Below are positions 52,967 to 64,000 of a DNA stretch of 64,000 bases, piece after piece (position 1 is the first letter of the stretch; every line of letters starts with the position of its first letter). This DNA comes from Pseudomonadota bacterium (GTDB lineage Bacteria > Pseudomonadota > Alphaproteobacteria > Acetobacterales > Acetobacteraceae). The position numbers and the translations under genes were made by a program. The stretch covers positions 1-64,000 of the forward strand of contig JAJZSY010000001.1 in assembly GCA_021849425.1 (NCBI GenBank). Reading direction: 5' to 3'. Below the pieces are notes generated by a model, which made no database searches, had not been told where the DNA came from, and saw nothing but the letters and a program-made list of their open reading frames with translations.

Positions 52967-53479
52967 ATGGCCAAGCCACCGACAGCCGCAAAAAATGCAG
53001 CCGACGAAACCTTGCCCGAAGCCGAGGGCGAGGCGGTGCCGGCAAAGCCGTCAAAGCGCAAGCTGATCTTCATCGGCGGTGCGGTCGCCGCGTTTCTGCT
53101 GCTGATCGGCGGCCTGTGGATCACCGGTATCCTGCCGCGCATGCTCGGGGAGAGACCACCGCCGAAAGTAACCGGGCCGGTTTACGTCAAAATCCCGGAA
53201 ATCGTCGCGAATCTCGACGTCCCCAATGGCCAGGACTCCTATGTGAAACTTGAAGCCACCATCGAACTTGCGGATCAGAAATCCGCAAAAATCGCGACGG
53301 CCGACATGCCCCGCATCGTCGATGTGTTCCAGACCTATCTCCGTGCCATGCGTCCAGGCGAACTGCGCGGCGCATCCGGCACCTACCGCCTGCGGGAAGC
53401 CCTGATCGATCGCGTCGAGGTGGCGACGGCGCCTGCCGTGGTGAAAGACATCCTGTTTCAGGAACTGATCGTTCAATAA
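52967..53479 (+). CDS. fliL: Flagellar basal body-associated protein FliL
   Basis: A 170-residue single-pass membrane protein that supports the stator. A Lys/Ala/Glu-rich cytoplasmic tail, membrane helix 'LIFIGGAVAAFLLLIGGLWI' (about residues 25-45) and a stomatin-like periplasmic domain ('VYVKIPEIVANLD', 'YVKLEATIEL', 'LREALIDRV'). fliM, which often follows fliL, is missing here. Confidence 0.9.
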   Translation: MAKPPTAAKNAADETLPEAEGEAVPAKPSKRKLIFIGGAVAAFLLLIGGLWITGILPRMLGERPPPKVTGPVYVKIPEIVANLDVPNGQDSYVKLEATIELADQKSAKIATADMPRIVDVFQTYLRAMRPGELRGASGTYRLREALIDRVEVATAPAVVKDILFQELIVQ

Positions 53480-53528: not shown

Positions 53529-54053
53529 ATGCTGACCTATATCCTGACTTATGGCGCATGGGGATTTCAGAGCGTATTATTTGGAGTTCTTGTTTTCACG
53601 CTGGTTTATGCACGCCGCCTGGACAAATCCATTCTCCAGATGCGCGCCGATCGCCATGCCCTGCAGGAACTGGTCGACCAGATCGGCACATCGGTCAGCT
53701 CCGCCATATCCGCCACCGAACGTCTGAAGGAGCAGGCCGGCCAGAGTTTCACCGCCCTGGAGGAGGCGTGCAAGGCCGCCGCCGCCTCCACCACCCGTCT
53801 CGACGAACTGATCAGCCAGGCCAATATCGCCGCGGACACCCAAAAGCGCGCCGAGAGCAAGGAGGGCTTCGATATGTCCGATACGTCTGCGGCCGTGATC
53901 GACCTGAAGCCTCAAGACGCCGTAGCTTCGCCGCGCGGGGTGCTGATGGCAAAACCAAACCCCCTGCACCGTTCGAACCAATCCCGGCGCCCCGCGAAGC
54001 TGCAAAGCAGAGCCGAGCGCGACCTTGCCCGGATGCTGCTAGATGCCACCTGA
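53529..54053 (+). CDS. DUF6468 family flagellar-locus protein
   Basis: A 174-residue protein with one N-terminal membrane helix ('YGAWGFQSVLFGVLVFTLVYARRL'), a coiled-coil segment ('LQMRADRHALQELVDQIGTS' through 'LEEACKAAAASTTRLDELI') and a basic tail. Members of this family sit between FliL/FliM and MotE-like genes in Rhodospirillales; function unknown, probably motor-associated. It overlaps the next gene by 11 bases. Confidence 0.7.
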   Translation: MLTYILTYGAWGFQSVLFGVLVFTLVYARRLDKSILQMRADRHALQELVDQIGTSVSSAISATERLKEQAGQSFTALEEACKAAAASTTRLDELISQANIAADTQKRAESKEGFDMSDTSAAVIDLKPQDAVASPRGVLMAKPNPLHRSNQSRRPAKLQSRAERDLARMLLDAT

Positions 54054-54768
54054 TGAGCTGCAATCCCGCGGACTGCCACGCCTACTGCCGATCGTGACGT
54101 TTTGTCTGTGCGGAACCATTCTCTTCAAGTCGGCCGGGCTTGTGGATGCTGCTTTCGCGGGCGCCTCAACGTCCGAAAAGGCGTCCACAAGCCTTCACCA
54201 GGCCCAGGACAAGCATTCCGGAACAAAGAGCGGGAATTCCGCTCCCTCGGCCTACGAACCCGTGGCCAACTGGAAAGACAAGCCCCCGCCTCCTCCTCTC
54301 TGCAAGCCAGACCCTCTGGACCAGACCGGCGAACGCAAGCTTTTGCTTCAACTCAAGCAACGGGCCGAGCAGCTTGATTCGCGCGCCGCGGCACTGAACC
54401 GCCAAGAGGCGGAACTGGCCGTGGAAAAGGAAGCCATCGCCAAGCAAATAGCGGCAATCAAGCCGCTGGCGCAGAAGCTTGAGCAGATCAATGCCGCTCA
54501 CAAAGCCGCAGATCAAAAGAAATGGACCGCTTTGGTTTCAACCTACGAAACGATGGATCCCCGGAGCGCTGCACGCATATTTGACGGTCTCGATCCCAAA
54601 ATCGTCCTGAATGTGATCCAGCGCATGAGCAGCCGAAAATCGGCGCCCATTCTGGCCGACATGAGCCCAGAAAAGGCACAAATCGTTACAGAGAAGCTCG
54701 CCGGCATGACGGCCATGACGCCCAAGCCTCAACCAGTCGCATCCCTTCTGCCTGATGGTGCGCCATGA
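54043..54768 (+). CDS. MotE-like (MgtE N-terminal domain) motor protein
   Basis: A 241-residue protein: N-terminal membrane anchor ('LLPIVTFCLCGTILFKSAGL'), coiled coil (about residues 105-155) and a C-terminal MgtE_N/MotE domain ('YETMDPRSAARIFDGLDPKIVLNVIQRMSSRKSAPILADM'). MotE is a periplasmic chaperone of MotC in rhizobia. Order fliL-DUF6468-motE is typical of the alphaproteobacterial flagellar cluster. It overlaps the large downstream gene by four bases. Confidence 0.8.
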   Translation: MPPDELQSRGLPRLLPIVTFCLCGTILFKSAGLVDAAFAGASTSEKASTSLHQAQDKHSGTKSGNSAPSAYEPVANWKDKPPPPPLCKPDPLDQTGERKLLLQLKQRAEQLDSRAAALNRQEAELAVEKEAIAKQIAAIKPLAQKLEQINAAHKAADQKKWTALVSTYETMDPRSAARIFDGLDPKIVLNVIQRMSSRKSAPILADMSPEKAQIVTEKLAGMTAMTPKPQPVASLLPDGAP

Positions 54769-57086
54769 CCCGCTCCCGCATGGCCGCTGCCAGCAGGAAA
54801 AAATTCAGATATGTCGCCTATATATCGCTTGCGCTCGGCGGAGGTATTCCGCACGCAGCCTTCGGCAATTCATCGTCATACTGGTTTCGTATCCTGGTGC
54901 CGGATAACCTGGTGCCCGCCAATGTCGGACAATCCATTTTCGAAGAGGGAGGCAATTCTTATCTTGTATTGGCTGGCAGCTTTCCAATAAAAGCATATGC
55001 GCTCAAAAAAATAACTGGCAATCAGAAAGCCGCCGTCATTCATCTTCAGAATTCCACAGTTCTCAAGATACCGACACCTGCAGGGCAATCATTATCGACG
55101 CAGGCCGGCAACAGCTCAATCCATGTCAACCTGACCCAATCGGCGCCCCAAAACAACGTCAAGATTTCTTTCGACAAGGGCTTTATAAACCTCGGTTGCA
55201 CCGATGCCGGGCCCATCGTCACAATGGCCGATCCACAAACCGGAAGACCCTTGTTGATCGGTACCGTGACCGGGACAACGGCCTTGAGCGACGCGCCAAG
55301 CGGGCCAGGATATAGGTTTTTGCCAACATCCCGAGGCATTGCCGTCATCGCATCGTCCGATGAGGTCGCGCTGTCCCGTCAAGCTGGCGGGTTCAGCCTG
55401 GGCTCCCTGAAAGCCGGCACCGGTCTGCCAATCGGTAATCCGCTTCTGGTTCCTCCCCTTACTGCGGCTTCAAGAACACCCGATGGCCTTGATCTTCCAC
55501 GTTACAATCTGATCGGCCTACGGCAGCGACTAGGGCTGCAACGCATCGCCGTGACCCAGGCGCCGGCTCTCGATAAAGAAGAAGCAACATTCAAGCTGGT
55601 TCGGGTGATGCTCGCACTCGATATGGGCCCCGAAGCCATCGGCGCACTTGACCGGCTTGCGCAAACTCAACCACTGATTACAGAAGGCGAGCAATGGAAC
55701 CTTTTGCACTCCGTCGCGAATATCATTTCCAATAACCCCGCGGGGGCACTAGATAATCTCGGAAAAATCAAAAATAATTCAAAAATAAAAGACACACTAA
55801 GCGCCTTGGCATACGCCAAGAAAGGCAAATATAAAAAGTCCATCAATGGAATAAAGTCTGGAATAAATTATATATTATCTCTTCCGACACTAATAAGAAA
55901 TGGTATTCTTCCAACCGTTGCAAAATCACTTATAAATACAAGTAATTTTGATACATTCAAGAAATATATGAATTTTTTTCCAAAAAACTCAATATTTAAT
56001 TTTTATATTGGGAACTATTATGAAAAAAATGGCAATCTCAATAAGGCAATTTCTATCTACAACAATATCCTTCACACGCGAAATAATAAAGCATTTGGAC
56101 TTGCCAATTCACATAAGATATATCTCGAATACAAAACACATAAATTAAGCGCGCATTCCGCAGCCGATCAGCTATTGCGTCATGTTTATGACTGGAGAGC
56201 GGCGAAGCACGAATTAAATCTTCGCATGGAGGTGGCAAAATTGTATGCAAAAGCCAATGATTGGCCCTCCGCGATGTCAGAACTCAAGCATGATTTTATG
56301 CTATTTCCCAGCAAATCCAACAAAATCAATCGCCTTCGACAAAAATTATTTTCAGATCTAACGAGTTCCAACCAGTTATCCAAGCTCGGGCCATTAGGGT
56401 CAGCATCGATCCTCCAAGATAATATTGACCTTATTCCAAAAAATAATAATGAGTTAAAATATGTGAAATATATGATAAATAATTTTAATCAATTAGGGCT
56501 TCCAGAAAACTCAATTCCTGCGCTTGAATATCTCATACAAAAAAATGAAAAACCAGAAAATCTGCCTTCACTTGGACTAATGTTGGCAAATGAACAATTC
56601 AAGAATAATCAATTCAATTTTGCAAAGAAAACACTAGATAAAACGAACGGATTATCCAATAACGTCGACATAATTCAGAAAAGACGCACGTTATACAAGC
56701 TCATTTCAGAAAAACTGAATCCAACTGTAACGAACCACCCTTCCAGCAAAAAGAGTCACCTGATTGCTGAAGCAGATCACTCGCACACGCAAAAAAACTG
56801 GCAAACTGAAGAAGAAAGACTCTCTAACTATGCATCAAAATATCTCAAAAATATAAATAAATTGAACAAGAAACAGTCAGATATTATAAACCAGCTCGCG
56901 ACAGCGGCTTATAAAAACAATGACAAAAAAACAATTGATAATTTGCGCCAAACCTATCTCAATCGGATACTTCCTGGACCAGAATCAGCACTATTTCAAA
57001 TAATAACTAGCGAGCCTATTTCTAAAAATTCAGATCTTCAGGATGCAATAAGGAAGATTAAATCCCTTGAAGATGTCACAAAGTGA
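54765..57086 (+). CDS. Large exported TPR-like protein of unknown function, AT-rich second half
   Basis: A 773-residue protein translationally coupled to the MotE-like gene (ATGA overlap). A probable signal segment at residues 13-35 ('FRYVAYISLALGGGIPHAAF') precedes a beta-rich region (about 40-230) and then helical repeats resembling TPR ('FNFYIGNYYEKNGNLNKAISIYNNIL', 'MEVAKLYAKANDWPSAMSELKHDF'). From about residue 325 the DNA switches to AT-rich codons (AAA, AAT, ATA), giving a Lys/Asn/Ile-heavy protein unlike its neighbours, yet the frame stays open. No catalytic domain is recognised. It may be a periplasmic scaffold of the flagellar motor. A recombined foreign segment or relaxed selection could explain the composition. 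Confidence 0.75.
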   Translation: MTRSRMAAASRKKFRYVAYISLALGGGIPHAAFGNSSSYWFRILVPDNLVPANVGQSIFEEGGNSYLVLAGSFPIKAYALKKITGNQKAAVIHLQNSTVLKIPTPAGQSLSTQAGNSSIHVNLTQSAPQNNVKISFDKGFINLGCTDAGPIVTMADPQTGRPLLIGTVTGTTALSDAPSGPGYRFLPTSRGIAVIASSDEVALSRQAGGFSLGSLKAGTGLPIGNPLLVPPLTAASRTPDGLDLPRYNLIGLRQRLGLQRIAVTQAPALDKEEATFKLVRVMLALDMGPEAIGALDRLAQTQPLITEGEQWNLLHSVANIISNNPAGALDNLGKIKNNSKIKDTLSALAYAKKGKYKKSINGIKSGINYILSLPTLIRNGILPTVAKSLINTSNFDTFKKYMNFFPKNSIFNFYIGNYYEKNGNLNKAISIYNNILHTRNNKAFGLANSHKIYLEYKTHKLSAHSAADQLLRHVYDWRAAKHELNLRMEVAKLYAKANDWPSAMSELKHDFMLFPSKSNKINRLRQKLFSDLTSSNQLSKLGPLGSASILQDNIDLIPKNNNELKYVKYMINNFNQLGLPENSIPALEYLIQKNEKPENLPSLGLMLANEQFKNNQFNFAKKTLDKTNGLSNNVDIIQKRRTLYKLISEKLNPTVTNHPSSKKSHLIAEADHSHTQKNWQTEEERLSNYASKYLKNINKLNKKQSDIINQLATAAYKNNDKKTIDNLRQTYLNRILPGPESALFQIITSEPISKNSDLQDAIRKIKSLEDVTK

Positions 57087-57655: not shown

Positions 57656-58855
57656 TTAGACCAAAGCTTTGCAGAACTCCACGATGCGGGAACACGCGAT
57701 GTCGAGGTCCATGTCAGCCGCGGCCGTCGATAGTCGAATATGACCCGACATGGCAAAAGCTGTCCCCGGAACAGTCGCCACAAGAGCTTCCTCAAGCAGT
57801 GCGCCGGCAAAGTCCTCGTCGTTTACCAGCAGACGGCCTCTTGGAGTACGGCGCCCAAGGAGGCCTTTTACTGACGGAAACGCATAAAATGCGCCTTGGG
57901 GAGGAGAGCAGGAAAGACCAGGTGCCCGAGCGAGCGCGTCAACAACCCTGATGCTTCGCTGGTGATAGACAGCTCGGCGCTCCTCCAGAATGTCCTGGGG
58001 ACCATCGAGTGCAGCCACCGCCGCAGCCTGACTGATCGTTGACACACCAGCTGTCGAGCTGCCCTGCACAACCAGCATCCCATCGAGCCAATCGCGTGGC
58101 CCCGTGCAAAACCCCAGCCGCCAGCCAGTCATCGCATAGGACTTCGATACACCAGACATCGTCAGAATGCGGTCTGACAGGTCTGGCGCTTCGGCAGCCA
58201 GAGTTTTGCACAACCCATCGAAAACCAGGTGCTCATAGATATCGTCCGAGACCACCCGTAATTGAGGGTGTTTTCGCAACACCTCTGCAATGTCACGCAG
58301 CATGGCCGCATCAGCAACAGCCCCGGACGGATTGTTGGGGAAATTCAAGAGAAGTAACTTACTGCGCGGTCCAATCACCGCGGAAAGGTCCGACGCAGAA
58401 AGCCGAAAGCCGTTTTCCGCCGGGCACGGGACAAAAATAGGGCTCCCGCCCGCGAACTCAACGACCTGAATATACCCGGCCCAGCACGGCGCGGGGATAA
58501 TCACCTCGTCACCTTGTTCAACAACAGCCATAACGGCATCGAAAATTGCCTGCTTGCCGCCGTTTGTTACCAAAACATCCGTCGGCGCCACCTTGAGCCC
58601 TTGATCTCGTCCAAACTTTCGAGCGACAGCACAGCGCAGGGCCTCAGTGCCCGCAATCGGCGGATATCGTGTCTGCCCGTCAAGTGCAGCTTTGTGAGCG
58701 GCTTCAATGACGTGATTGGGCGTCGGAAAATCAGGCTCGCCGATGGCCAGCGAAATAACATCACGACCCGCAGCTCGGAGAGAGCGTGCAAGCGCAGCAG
58801 TTGCAAATGTAGCGGCAGGTCGGGTCCGGGTGACACGTAAAGAAAGCGGGTTCAT
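57656..58855 (-). CDS. Pyridoxal-phosphate aspartate/aromatic aminotransferase (class I)
   Basis: A 399-residue fold-type I aminotransferase of the AspC/AatA group. '[20 protein letters not shown]', '[33 protein letters not shown]', '[10 protein letters not shown]', '[15 protein letters not shown]', PLP lysine in '[16 protein letters not shown]', and '[13 protein letters not shown]'. It likely transaminates aspartate with 2-oxoglutarate. Its place behind a flagellin glycosyltransferase may mean amino-sugar supply or be incidental. Confidence 0.88.
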
Positions 58856-58886
58856 CCCGCCTCAGCACCACACCCGACCAAAATAT

Positions 58887-61076
58887 TCAAGTGCATGCGC
58901 CGAGTTGGCAGCATTCCTTCCAAGCGCTCCTTAGCGCGTTCCCAAGATTTCGTCCGAAGCGCGGGGCATCACAAAGTGGGCTTTCCAAAACCCGCTGCCG
59001 GAGACCCGCACGAAGGCTCGCTAGGGCTTCCAGATCCGACGCCATCGCAACGGCCTTATCAACATAGGAATCCGTACTATCGGTCACGCAATCACAAAGA
59101 CCGACATTGGAAAGATGGCTGACTGAGTGCCGCGCAGCAAAAAAGTCTCCAGCTAGTGTGATGACAGGAACCCCCATGAACAAAGCTTCGCACGTCGTCA
59201 ATCCGCCAGAATAAGGTATCGGATCTAGAGCAACATCAACATCTTGATATCCACTTATAAATTGATGGTGCCCAGCACGCCCCCGCAATTCAAGTCGGTC
59301 AAGATTTATGCCAATTTCAGCTGCCCGCTTTAGAAACCTATCCGGAACACCAACTTCAGAAAATTGTGGGCATCGCAAAATTAGCCGTGAATTTGGAAGG
59401 TGAGACAAAACTCTTCCCCACAGAGAGAGAGATTCGTCAGTAATTTTTGAAAGATTATTAAAGCAACCGAAAGTAACATATCCATTTGCACGGGCAGGAA
59501 GCGCCGTAACTGAAGGCGGGTCAGGTGGCGGCGAGTAACAAACATAGCCATCAGGGAGCCGCAACAAACGTTCTGTGTAAAACTGCTCATAACCCACAGG
59601 CGTTTCCCACCGGTCCGTGAGTATCCAGTCCACACGCTTCATACCCGTTGTAGATGCTTGTGTGCCAACCCACTTTATTTGAACCGGCGAAGGCCGGTAA
59701 GCCAAAGCACCCAATAAACCACCGTCACCGATACCGCTTAGGTCAATAAGGATATCAATCATATTCTCGGCGATCAACTCTGCAATCTCTCTGACCCCCA
59801 TGCCAGTGCATTCGTGCCATGACGCACAGAAGCCAGAAAGTCTTTTTGCAAACCGATCGTGGTCAGTATAGTGCCCGAAGCAATGCAGCTCGAACATTGA
59901 CCAATCCAAATTTTCTAGCCCAGCGAAAGTAAGCCAACCAACAGGATGCTGCCTCAATGTATGTGAGAGAACTCCCACCCGCAGAACCTTGTCGGGTCGG
60001 AAATCAGTTATCTTTGCGAGGGGAGGACATTCTTCGGGTAGCGTGGAAGCTAATCTCCGCATAGCGGCAAAGAGATCACCAGCTGTTGTACCGTATTTAT
60101 AAGGAAGCAAAGTACTTTCCGTTTGATACAACAAACCTTTTTCTGCGTAAGGAGCCGCAGTTTCAATATCATCAATTGAACCTGAAATATTACCAGAAGA
60201 TGCACGAATAGTAGCACGATTAAGCAGAACAGTTGAAGCACTTTCAGGTGGAATTATTAATGAGTCTAATAGATCAGCCGCCTCTCCATATCGATATTGC
60301 CGACCAAGAGAAACGGCCAAATCATTTGTTATATCGATATCCCCCGGCCGGTGCTTGAGTGCATCTCGGAGAAAAAGTTCTGCCCGCTCAGGCTCTTGGC
60401 AAGATAATTCGAAATCCGCATGAAGTTGGAGTAAGTCAGGATCCCCGGGCTGAAGCTTTAACGCCGCTTCTGAAAATGCAATCGCCTCCTGAAGATAGCC
60501 CAGGCGACGCGATTTCCGCGCCTCAAGGGCAAGCTGTACGGCGGGTGTCCATTGGGGTACCTCAACCGAGATATCAGAACTACCGGACACTACCGCAAGG
60601 ACGTCACTGTGCATCATTGCATACCGAAAACAATGTGGGGCTAATACGCCTGCTCGAGTGACAGCCTCAAGGGATAATCCAACAACTCCAAGTGCAAGAC
60701 ACGCAATCGAAAATGCATGCCATGCCTCATCATTATCTGGCGCCCGCCTGGTAGCTTCCTCAAGATATGAAAATGCTTCAAGAGGATCATTGTTTCGCAG
60801 CGCCAAAACACCCGCAGCAATGAACGGTTCATTACGACATATAGGCAAAGATGTCGCCCTGCGATAATATTCCCGGGCCTCTACAATCTTGTTTTGCCCA
60901 CGCATATATTGCGCAAGCCTAATCCATGGCTCATCCCAACTGGGAGCAACGTAAGCTGCCATTTCAAGTAAACACAGCGGAGATTTATCAGAGCAATCTA
61001 CCTCAGCAGCTAACGCCATCGCTATAAAATCGGCCGCCCGCCGTCTATCTTCCGCCACCACGGCACGCCCGTTCAT
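58887..61076 (-). CDS. SPINDLY/OGT-type O-GlcNAc transferase with TPRs (probable flagellin glycosyltransferase)
   Basis: The 729-residue protein has N-terminal TPR-type repeats (about residues 30-330, e.g. 'SWDEPWIRLAQYMRGQNKIVEAREYYRRA', 'PDNDEAWHAFSIACLALG') and a C-terminal GT41 domain (about 355-715): 'RVGVLSHTLRQHPVGWL', 'FGCFNNLSKITDESLSLWGRVLSHLPNSRLIL' and 'DPIPYSGGLTTCEALFMGVPVITLAGDFFAARHSVSHLSNVGL'. Such enzymes glycosylate flagellin in several bacteria, and flagellin lies nearby on the same strand. ATG at 61076 begins five bases after the preceding TPR gene; the open frame upstream is overlap. Confidence 0.88.
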   Translation of the reverse strand: MNGRAVVAEDRRRAADFIAMALAAEVDCSDKSPLCLLEMAAYVAPSWDEPWIRLAQYMRGQNKIVEAREYYRRATSLPICRNEPFIAAGVLALRNNDPLEAFSYLEEATRRAPDNDEAWHAFSIACLALGVVGLSLEAVTRAGVLAPHCFRYAMMHSDVLAVVSGSSDISVEVPQWTPAVQLALEARKSRRLGYLQEAIAFSEAALKLQPGDPDLLQLHADFELSCQEPERAELFLRDALKHRPGDIDITNDLAVSLGRQYRYGEAADLLDSLIIPPESASTVLLNRATIRASSGNISGSIDDIETAAPYAEKGLLYQTESTLLPYKYGTTAGDLFAAMRRLASTLPEECPPLAKITDFRPDKVLRVGVLSHTLRQHPVGWLTFAGLENLDWSMFELHCFGHYTDHDRFAKRLSGFCASWHECTGMGVREIAELIAENMIDILIDLSGIGDGGLLGALAYRPSPVQIKWVGTQASTTGMKRVDWILTDRWETPVGYEQFYTERLLRLPDGYVCYSPPPDPPSVTALPARANGYVTFGCFNNLSKITDESLSLWGRVLSHLPNSRLILRCPQFSEVGVPDRFLKRAAEIGINLDRLELRGRAGHHQFISGYQDVDVALDPIPYSGGLTTCEALFMGVPVITLAGDFFAARHSVSHLSNVGLCDCVTDSTDSYVDKAVAMASDLEALASLRAGLRQRVLESPLCDAPRFGRNLGNALRSAWKECCQLGACT

Positions 61077-61080
61077 AGAA

Positions 61081-61866
61081 TCAAACAGTCCGCGGTAAAG
61101 AGCGCGTCGCGGCGTTAAATAATGTTGTCGCCTCCTCCCAATTACCTGTATTTGTGGCCACCTGTACGGCAAGAAGGCAAGTATCAAGATTGGCAATGCC
61201 GTCAATAATAAGATCGCTGATAAGAGATGAGGCTTCCTCAAAGGCACCACGCGCAAGGAGTGAAGAAATCAAGACATGCGTGAGTTCCAATTTCTGTGTT
61301 TGATCTCCATCAGCACGAGACCCAAATCGATCAAGGGCCGCCTTCGTAGCGATTTCCGCCTCACCAGGAGCCGACCGCGCTAAAGCACGTAAAATTTGTA
61401 GATTATCTGGCATATCGACCAAAGCCTCACGCAAGCAAACAACTCCTTCGTCTTCCTGCCCGAGTTCTAGCAATGCTCGACCAAGCATAGATTTCGAAGT
61501 CGCATCTCGTGGATTAAAGGTAATTGCTTCCGCTGACGCTTTTGCGGCCTCGATCCAATCATGTTCATCGAGGCTGATCTCAGCGGTCATGCGTAGCAAA
61601 AGCGGATGACCAGGATGCTCAATAAGCGCATCCGCCACGATCTGTTTGGCGCGACCGCGATCACCCAGGCTAAATTGAATCATGGCTTCAAGCACCGCAA
61701 TCATACCAAAATCTTCGCCAAGGCGCCTCAACGACGGCAATAGAAGCGCGGCGGCATTCAACTGTCCGCGCTCAATCAACTGCCGCACTCGATTTCGAAT
61801 TATTTCATGCGTACTCGGTCTTACAGATATAAATTCGAACGGAATATTGCTTTCTACTTCATTCAT
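61081..61866 (-). CDS. TPR-repeat protein next to flagellin glycosyltransferase
   Basis: A 261-residue protein with no signal peptide, made of helical repeats ('NRVRQLIERGQLNAAALLLPSLRRLG', 'HPLLLRMTAEISLDEHDWIEAAKASAEAI', 'DATSKSMLGRALLELGQEDEGVVCLREAL'). It starts after AAGGAAC and ends four bases before the OGT gene, so the two are surely co-translated and may form a complex that presents the substrate. No enzymatic domain is seen. Confidence 0.75.
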   Translation of the reverse strand: MNEVESNIPFEFISVRPSTHEIIRNRVRQLIERGQLNAAALLLPSLRRLGEDFGMIAVLEAMIQFSLGDRGRAKQIVADALIEHPGHPLLLRMTAEISLDEHDWIEAAKASAEAITFNPRDATSKSMLGRALLELGQEDEGVVCLREALVDMPDNLQILRALARSAPGEAEIATKAALDRFGSRADGDQTQKLELTHVLISSLLARGAFEEASSLISDLIIDGIANLDTCLLAVQVATNTGNWEEATTLFNAATRSLPRTV

Positions 61867-61916: not shown

Positions 61917-62789
61917 CTATGCAGTAAGAGAACTGGCTTGAACAGCAAGAGAGATCAGGTTAGCCGATGCACCATTACCACCCATTTGACTCGCTTGGGT
62001 CACGGCTAGGAAACGGTCTGTAAAAGACTGCACAAAATTCTTGTCCTGAAATTTCGTTACGTCCAGGCGACTATTTATCGCTTGCTCTTGTGCATTTAGA
62101 GGCTGAAACGCTATTTGCTGGGGTAATCCGAGCGCTGTTGTGACAACCGATCGCATGACAGCGTCACCTAGAATTTGCGTGGCGTTCGTAAATTTTGAGG
62201 CATTTTGAATAAAATAAAGGGCATTAGATAAACCAGGCGTTTGCTTATCAAGAGACTGACGCCATAATACCTCTGCATAAGCATTTGTCAAAGTTGAGAT
62301 TGTTGACTGCTTTTTAATTACTGACAGCCCCTGCGAGTAAAATTGATATAGCTGTGCTGTTGCCAGCCATTGCGTGTTCGTTGAGGCTAATTGATTTGCG
62401 AGACCGTTGGGGTCTTTTGGATTCGATAGCAACGCCTTTTGCGCAAGCGCCGGAAATCCTGCCTCTGCACCCAGTCCATTTGCAGTCAGAAGTACCTTTA
62501 GAACTGTTGGATTTGATAATAGTTCTTTAGGTGATTTTGCTTTGTTAACCGCCTTTGTAAAAGCGGCGATATCCCTCTGAACTTGAGGAGTTTTAGCCTG
62601 CGCTTGGATATCTTTGGTCTCATTCCGCTGCGCGATGTCGAGGGCAAGGATGGGATTTTGTGAGCTAAATGTTGTTGCGCCTACTGTTCCACCGTAACTC
62701 GCCTGAAGCAGAGATACTGTGTTGGATGATGAACCAACGCCGGATGCCGCAAATAGCGAATTTATGTTGGACGAAAACGAAACAGACAC
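61917..62789 (-). CDS. DUF1217 flagellar protein
   Basis: A 290-residue protein of the DUF1217 type found near alphaproteobacterial flagellin genes ('QNPILALDIAQRNETKDIQAQAKTPQVQRDIAAFTKAVNKAKSPKELLSNPTVLKVLL'-like helical core; 'AEVLWRQSLDKQTPGLSNALYF'). The pattern suggests an export-linked helical protein. Its precise role is unknown. It follows flaF by 21 bases. Confidence 0.78.
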   Translation of the reverse strand: MSVSFSSNINSLFAASGVGSSSNTVSLLQASYGGTVGATTFSSQNPILALDIAQRNETKDIQAQAKTPQVQRDIAAFTKAVNKAKSPKELLSNPTVLKVLLTANGLGAEAGFPALAQKALLSNPKDPNGLANQLASTNTQWLATAQLYQFYSQGLSVIKKQSTISTLTNAYAEVLWRQSLDKQTPGLSNALYFIQNASKFTNATQILGDAVMRSVVTTALGLPQQIAFQPLNAQEQAINSRLDVTKFQDKNFVQSFTDRFLAVTQASQMGGNGASANLISLAVQASSLTA

Positions 62790-62810
62790 AGATTGCTCCG
62801 TAGCTTTATG

Positions 62811-63152
62811 TTACGCCCTACCACTCAAGCCATTTGCAAAATTATCGCAAATTGTTGCAATGAAATCAACGTCTATGGTTTCTAAATTCATCTGTCTAAG
62901 AACAGTGTTTGCAACAGATACAATTTGAACTCGCAATGATTCTGGTAATGGATTTAGTGGGTCTAGATTTGTAGCTAAAACTGTTTGCCAAACTCTTCTT
63001 GCTGTAGCCAGCGCCTTGACACGTTCAAGTTCATTATCTGCCGACCGTAATAACACACTGACGCTACGAAAGACCTCTGCGTCCTGCTGCCGCTGATCAC
63101 GGAGGCTATTGGCGGACTCGTAAGCTTTAAGAGCTTTTGCTTGATAAGACAT
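62811..63152 (-). CDS. flaF: Flagellar biosynthesis regulator FlaF
   Basis: A 113-residue protein ('SYQAKALKAYESANSLRDQRQQDAEVFRSVSVLL', 'ARRVWQTVLATNLDPLNPLPESLR', 'RQMNLETIDVDFIATICDNFANGL'). In Caulobacter FlaF is needed for flagellin synthesis and works with FlbT. ATG at 63152 follows AAAGGGATC. Located between flbT and the DUF1217 gene. Confidence 0.9.
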   Translation of the reverse strand: MSYQAKALKAYESANSLRDQRQQDAEVFRSVSVLLRSADNELERVKALATARRVWQTVLATNLDPLNPLPESLRVQIVSVANTVLRQMNLETIDVDFIATICDNFANGLSGRA

Positions 63153-63185
63153 CGATGATCCCTTTTGGTGACCCACATTTCGTTA

Positions 63186-63584
63186 TCACTGACATGACCC
63201 CAGGACCGCTGCCTCGTGCCGCATGATCCTCCGTGACAATTTTAGAGCTTCGTAACAATCATCTGCCTTCGCACATTCAAGCGCCCGGTCTAGAATTTCC
63301 CGGGCTAGGGGGGAGGTGGTTGCCTGCTTGAACTGCTCGATAAGCTCACGCGCCCTTAAAAGGGCAGATTCACGTTCTTCAGTTGTTCCAATATATGCAG
63401 TTTGTAGAGCAAAATATATCTGCTTCGCTGGCGTATTTACTTCATCCGGACGTAGTATTTGCTTTCCGAACATGAAGCGAGCCTTCGCGGTTAGCTCTAT
63501 CCGCGATTTTGTGCGGAAGCGGATCGGTGCGCCATTCAAAACCATGATATCGCCTTGGCGAAGCTCCAGCACCAGAACCGACAT
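63186..63584 (-). CDS. flbT: Flagellin mRNA regulator FlbT
   Basis: A 132-residue post-transcriptional regulator that binds the flagellin mRNA leader. 'VLELRQGDIMVLNGAPIRFRTKSRIELTAKARFMFGKQI', 'PAKQIYFALQTAYIGTTEERESALLRARELI' and 'ALKLSRRIMRHEAAVLG' are typical. AAAGGATACTCGA precedes the ATG. It comes 71 bases after the flagellin stop. Confidence 0.92.
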   Translation of the reverse strand: MSVLVLELRQGDIMVLNGAPIRFRTKSRIELTAKARFMFGKQILRPDEVNTPAKQIYFALQTAYIGTTEERESALLRARELIEQFKQATTSPLAREILDRALECAKADDCYEALKLSRRIMRHEAAVLGSCQ

Positions 63585-63614
63585 TCGAGTATCCTTTTTA
63601 AGGCGGGAGACGGA

Positions 63615-63641
63615 GCCGGCCTGCCTAGTCTCCAGGCCGGC
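63615..63641 (-). terminator. Hairpin between flagellin and flbT
   Basis: GCCGGCCTG and CAGGCCGGC pair perfectly (9 bp) around a nine-base loop, just after the flagellin stop on the minus strand. No T-run follows, so it may be an attenuator or an mRNA-stabilising element that lowers read-through into flbT. Confidence 0.5.
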
Positions 63642-63654
63642 CCCTGGCTGATGG

Positions 63655-64000
63655 CTAGATCAGCTTCGTGAGAATTGACGGCTGCTGATTCGCGATGGAG
63701 AGAGCCGATGTCGCAAGCTGCTGCTGGATCTGGAGGGACTGAAGCTTGGCAGACTCAGCCGCCATGTTAGCGTCAACAAGCGCTCCAAGACCGTTGCTCA
63801 GAGCATCCATTTTGTTTTGATTATATGTAATTTGGGCGTCGATTTGGTTAGTTAAATTACCATATGTATTTAGGTAAGAACCGACACTGGAGACCTGTTT
63901 GCTGAATGAGCCAGTGGCGGTCAAAAAGTTCGCAACTGTTGCGTAGCTGTATGTGCCGGAAGCAACTTTTGCGAGCGACGCTCCGATTGTAGACAACGCA
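63655..64000 (-). CDS. fliC/flaA: Flagellin, C-terminal part (cut by window end)
   Basis: Only the last 113 or so codons are inside the window. The sequence 'LNTYGNLTNQIDAQITYNQNKMDALSNGLGALVDANMAAESAKLQSLQIQQQLATSALSIANQQPSILTKLI'-type end shows the C-terminal D0/D1 coiled coil of flagellin (LGA..D.DMA.ESA.L..LQ.QQQLA..ALSIANQ). The gene starts to the right of 64000. It is followed by flbT and flaF, the usual alphaproteobacterial order. Confidence 0.9.
   Translation of the reverse strand, partial: ALSTIGASLAKVASGTYSYATVANFLTATGSFSKQVSSVGSYLNTYGNLTNQIDAQITYNQNKMDALSNGLGALVDANMAAESAKLQSLQIQQQLATSALSIANQQPSILTKLI

Follow-up and report, generated by a model that had tools for sequence, protein, structure and literature searches.

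A flagellar operon in a 64,000-nucleotide stretch of an Acetobacteraceae genome, here called the window, contains a 773-residue reading frame that turns sharply AT-rich partway along, which raises the questions of what the protein is and where its second half came from. The window is part of contig C23 (289,652 bp, GC 0.681) of genome G000 (2.9 Mb, 65 contigs), whose genus was read as Acidiphilium. Pfam searches gave the operon order, on the + strand like all features described below unless noted, as fliL (52967..53479; FliL family, stator-associated, E 6.9e-18), a DUF6468 gene (53529..54053; E 1.9e-6, above the cut-off), a MotE-like gene (54043..54768), and the 773-aa gene (54765..57086). The MotE-like protein is a candidate E-ring protein with an MgtE_N-type C-terminus, matching MgtE_N at E 3.2e-5, just below the cut-off, and the FlbB collar model at E 1.4e-7, far below the cut-off. 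The DUF6468 gene is likely the counterpart of pflI, judging by its position. In NCBIfam, none of the four proteins searched had a match over a cut-off. The coupling of the 773-aa gene to the MotE-like gene that the original prediction described is borne out by their shared operon and by a 4-bp overlap of the two frames (54765-54768).

The AT-rich turn itself, first placed at residue 325 (position 55740) of an uninterrupted frame, is real and could be refined. A maximum-likelihood GC change point falls at nucleotide 984, which corresponds to residue 329 and position 55749 (log-likelihood gain 50.7), with GC of 0.551 upstream and 0.342 downstream, so that the AT-rich, fast-evolving part of the protein occupies residues 329-773 (55749..57083). 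Between residues 1-324 and 325-773, GC at the three codon positions drops from 0.58/0.49/0.57 to 0.40/0.30/0.34, and F, Y, M, I, N and K together make up 42% of residues 330-773 vs 18% of residues 120-329. The GC minimum of the contig (0.341) lies in this second half, as found with 5,768 overlapping 1,300-bp windows on the one contig of 65 that was profiled. The first part of the protein had been thought GC-rich like the rest of the window, which is wrong: GC3 is below background already across the operon (DnaE2 0.86, FliL 0.72, DUF6468 0.73, MotE 0.65, and residues 1-324 0.57). Overall background GC was measured in two genomes, G000 (0.68, contig) and its sister genome G004 (0.68, sample). 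A further low-GC segment with a minimum of 0.44, containing an ORF at 71943-72767, lies outside the window at 71251-73101 of the contig. The FlaF locus (window 61917-64000 and L140-L147) has a GC of 0.48-0.62 in all eight genus genomes examined.

The predicted structure has no domain border at the step, which sits within a long superhelix. The protein begins with a basic and then hydrophobic stretch (residues 1-36, 54765..54872) that looks like a signal peptide by eye and has low model confidence. It is followed by a beta-rich region (residues ~37-214, 54873..55406), a low-confidence linker (residues 225-239, 55437..55481, pLDDT <50) and a TPR-type alpha superhelix (residues 249-772, 55509..57080), seen as model helices and matched by TPR_19 at the cut-off and TPR_17 below it. 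In the whole-protein model (m77db6363d262; mean pLDDT 84.4, pTM 0.52) the beta-rich region spans residues 40-214 and most blocks of the superhelix have pLDDT >80. The TPR-like scaffold originally proposed is supported by the modeled TPR superhelix, and it is probably exported. The first part of the beta-rich region is weakly AMIN-like. When the N-domain was modeled in isolation, one of the five models was confident (mean pLDDT 86.9 vs 58-60), and its best match with a second aligner was chain Qa of 3jc8, a type IVa pilus machine (Z 7.0, rmsd 3.2, 85 residues aligned; next match 5.1), a modest match to which Foldseek gives E 1.2. We read chain Qa as PilQ from its label, and the AMIN domain of PflA is compared with PilQ of PDB 3jc8 in PMC11870540. 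AmiC, which is named in PMC10954123, was absent from the 50 N-domain matches listed.

Searches with the whole model returned mainly generic TPR superhelices. The top PDB chain in Foldseek was 9hmf_K, from the Campylobacter jejuni flagellar periplasmic scaffold (E 2.2e-8; the chain is unnamed in the output), with a poor overall superposition (TM-score 0.19) and generic TPR superhelices close behind. TPR structures filled the 50 matches listed by the second aligner, with no bacterial flagellar chain among them. When the genus profile was run against the sequences of solved structures, the single match was a TPR protein at chance level (E 0.24).

Most likely the gene encodes, in Acidiphilium, a PflA-like motor scaffold of the MotK/CC_2058 kind known from Alphaproteobacteria, with an AT-rich TPR region that is native to it. 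Homology at the family and class level, operon position, predicted domain order and co-occurrence with DUF6468 are most simply read in this way, so the new motor component that had been suggested is not new but belongs, by operon place and predicted domain order, to a published kind. In the fliL2-pflI-motE-motA2-motK operon of Cereibacter sphaeroides, MotE and MotK are periplasmic, both are required for rotation, and they bind each other and MotB2 (PMC10954123). MotK of the C. sphaeroides Fla2 system is large and exported with a beta N-domain followed by a TPR-like region, as is predicted for the window protein, and its gene also comes after motE in the operon; the likeness is by description and not by sequence, MotK has 652 aa vs 773, and motA2 lies between the two C. 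sphaeroides genes whereas no motA does so here (PMC10954123). Caulobacter crescentus CC_2058 directly follows a motE-type gene (CC_2059), as the window gene does, and is PflA-like by predicted structure, again compared by description only (PMC13023049, PMC10954123). PflA of C. jejuni has an AMIN-like beta domain, a loop and a long TPR spoke, an order like that predicted for the window protein with its weakly AMIN-like beta region, and binds the MotE-type E-ring protein FlgY (PMC11870540). A review assigns MotE, FlgY and FlbB to the E-ring and describes MotC, MotK and CC_2058 as PflA-like TPR partners (PMC13023049). MotC of Sinorhizobium meliloti is a TPR-type periplasmic partner of MotE, as the window protein would be, but it is described there without the AMIN domain that MotK has (PMC13023049), and motE of S. 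meliloti is located between flgI and flgH, unlike the fliL operon of the window (PMC10954123). Adjacency to a MotE-type gene within a fliL operon and a long TPR-type superhelix, both expected of a MotK/CC_2058/PflA-like spoke, are present in the window gene. By analogy with these published relatives, the window protein would be periplasmic, would bind MotE and MotB, and would be needed for rotation.

Relatives of the protein are widespread. A single-protein scan of genome contigs gave no relatives, and an alignment-based scan gave 15 loci. Among genomes of the same family, 153 of 200 had a profile match, and among those of the same class 126 of 240 did, representing 107 of 203 genera; all matches listed in an order-level search were from the same family, which limits that search to the family level. 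DUF6468 was present in 123 of the 240 same-class genomes: 113 had both, 13 had the MotK-like family only, and 10 had DUF6468 only. In 84 of the 113, a count uncorrected for genome kinship, the TPR gene lay 1.1-9.1 kb downstream of DUF6468 on the same strand, and in the rest the two were otherwise placed on the same contig (4) or on different contigs (25). Homologues occurred in eight of 13 genus genomes, the same eight that have the MotE-like gene. FlhA was found in 12 of the 13, as was MotB. Four genomes with both FlhA and MotB (G006, G007, G008 and G011; completeness 88-96%) had no MotK-like match with either the single query or the wider profile and no MotE-like match with a single-protein query, which suggests that some Acidiphilium have flagella without requiring the MotK-like protein.

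Three plasmid cases were examined out of the matched records, in which the genes are annotated as TPR or hypothetical proteins. The profile-found gene lies directly before motA-motB in Azospirillum brasilense (L156:5269-9571), 1.4 kb after a DUF6468 gene in Erythrobacter, and among flg genes in Sulfitobacter. The profile recovers all three proteins, which a profile of the beta domain alone did not find, and on contig C23 it matches the 773-aa gene alone among 1,389 ORF stretches, leaving two other TPR proteins of the window unmatched. One of the three plasmid proteins, encoded in a flagellar cluster, is from Roseobacteraceae, which links the profile indirectly to MotK, as relatives of MotK are reported from that family (PMC10954123).

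Whether the second half is foreign or fast-evolving had been left as an alternative, of which the second part stands. The eight genus sequences align lengthwise (that of G004 being a post-insertion piece only), and the AT-rich half can be matched over its whole length, position for position, to step-less orthologues. No comparable step occurs in six of the eight: the change-point test, applied to five of them, gave gains of 1.5-5.3, compared to 25.6 in the downstream piece of G004, where the step lies ~23 codons further on (by eye in alignment A1). The window protein is also recovered, at E 2.1e-77, by a profile of the second half built with the AT-rich pair left out. For residues 37-329 and 330-773, trees were made from a 26-row alignment (A2) comprising seven of the eight genus sequences (without G002, which is close to G001), L045, and 18 of the 25 loci L046-L070; two further alignments had 15 rows (A3, L039 left out) and 13 rows (A4, L034 and L040 also left out). 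Both trees paired G000 with G004 (100/100) and grouped the pair with Acidiphilium vs 19 other-genus rows (100/99 and 99/96). The position of the pair among the Acidiphilium rows of the second-half tree is weakly supported (69/27), a first branch being possible, and both rows drew a composition warning from the tree program, which leaves inner order and branch lengths approximate. In the second half, the identity of G000 is 23-26% with five genus relatives and averages 21% with the 19 other-genus rows, and the corresponding values for G004 are 29-31% and 24%. Neither in the 26-row trees nor in these identities was a sampled lineage outside the genus closer to the second half than the genus itself. 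The alignment to step-less orthologues, the identities, the trees and the profile match all speak against a foreign domain, and nothing in these comparisons points to a foreign origin of the second half; it looks like a very rapidly changing stretch inherited within the genus.

A subtler exchange, in which homologous recombination with an unsampled, AT-rich relative from within or close to the genus replaced the second half and left a mosaic gene, either before or after G000 and G004 split, would account for the sharpness of the step and for its nearly identical place in G004. It would also fit the fall in G000-G004 identity across the step from 56% to 33%, a ratio of 0.59, whereas pairs of the five other Acidiphilium sequences share 42-84% identity in the second part, or 0.81-1.04 times that in the first part, and it would fit a first-branch position of the pair. 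However, the second-half tree itself unites G000 and G004 on the Acidiphilium side, both genomes are more similar there to genus relatives than to other genera, no AT-rich homologue occurs among the 26 best-scoring other-genus loci (GC 0.62-0.78 over the last three fifths), and the AT shift is present already in the upstream genes. We consider such a swap unlikely.

On the preferred reading, inheritance within the genus, the second half evolves very fast. Between G000 and G004, identity is 88% in DnaE2, 79% in FliL, 67% in MotE and 56% in DUF6468; within the 773-aa gene, two first-part pieces give 42% and 56% and the second part 34.5%. The approximate terminal branches of G000 and G004 are 1.25 and 0.95 for the second part vs 0.47 and 0.29 for the first. 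On this reading the AT-rich part is most of the TPR spoke rather than an acquired domain, and it evolves very fast and drifts to AT in the G000/G004 lineage, with selection retaining the frame and about two thirds of the most conserved positions. The second part has 57 columns that are conserved in 22 or more of the remaining 24 rows, of which G000 retains 36 and G004 41; residues 120-329 have 25 such columns, of which they retain 20 and 21. It is also conceivable, though quite unlikely, that the TPR arm of the spoke in this lineage is under continuing and possibly adaptive remodelling, or repeatedly swaps alleles with unsampled AT-rich relatives, which leaves the spokes of two close species just one third identical. 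Were this so, the partners of the spoke in the periplasmic motor ring would seem to be changing, and this might be connected with the flagellated genus members in which MotE and MotK went undetected.

The long branches, and the retention of just 36 of the 57 near-invariant columns, could instead reflect a gene in decay, in which motility is no longer selected in the lineage and the AT-rich half shows early pseudogene drift. The G004 copy (L011:7404-8488) is indeed split near residue 118 by an inserted element with an IS1595-type transposase. The AT-rich half lies downstream of the insertion and is open in G004 as well, so the frame breaks in sister strains that had been proposed as a refutation occur in the gene but not in the half in question. 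Against decay, the 445 codons of the second half contain no stop codon where 21 are expected on average (minimum 9 in 2,000 shuffles preserving codon-position content), this half is predicted to fold with high confidence, and other flagellar genes are better conserved between G000 and G004 (FlbT 94%, FlhA 91%, MotB 82%, flagellin 81% and FlaF 70% identity), making decay very unlikely.

Lower identity between the two genomes tracks lower GC3 across 28 gene segments (Spearman 0.70; 0.65 without the 773-aa gene, n 26), in a comparison of one genome pair and hand-picked, mostly flagellar genes. Of 30 segments, DUF1348 had no match and one gene matched over less than half, so both were left out; the labels FleN, FlhF, FlbD, FliN, FliG, FliF, MotA, FlgL, FlgE and others were assigned by eye or position, and those of FlhA and MotB rest on searches for them across the genus genomes. 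Noncoding gaps on the contig have a GC of about 0.65 by rough estimate, so mutation pressure alone is not obviously enough to reach 0.34, and our preferred explanation is that weak constraint combined with AT-biased mutation would have driven the drift. That AT content is itself selected, for example through silencing by nucleoid proteins, mRNA folding or slippage-based switching, is highly improbable: GC3 is also low in FlaF (0.34), DUF1217 (0.40) and the GT41 gene (0.42), but homopolymer runs are no more frequent than codon content predicts, with none longer than 7, and GC3 drops with protein divergence as under drift, with the scope of that comparison as given. The A/T runs noted originally are present in the second half, but their number (7 of at least 6 nucleotides, the longest 7, vs 5.7 expected from codon shuffling) matches codon content, which speaks against phase variation via homopolymers. 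A purely regional GC dip was likewise rejected, since the AT shift goes with the genes rather than with a location: in G004 it affects both the flagellin cluster (~143-154 kb) and the distant motE operon (~2,150 kb).

Between motK and the flagellin cluster, the window also contains an aminotransferase, a GT41-type glycosyltransferase with TPRs and a second TPR gene (57656-61866, - strand), a set that possibly serves flagellin modification. In G004 the same set is likewise beside the flagellin cluster, ~2.0 Mb from the motE operon.

In this case an abrupt change of composition within one reading frame is better accounted for by fast evolution within a genus than by foreign DNA. The profile ties TPR proteins that carry a hypothetical annotation beside alphaproteobacterial flagellar genes to the MotK/PflA kind of spoke. 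The pair G000 and G004, and the flagellated genus members without detected MotE or MotK, lend themselves to testing which spoke parts are truly required by a motor.
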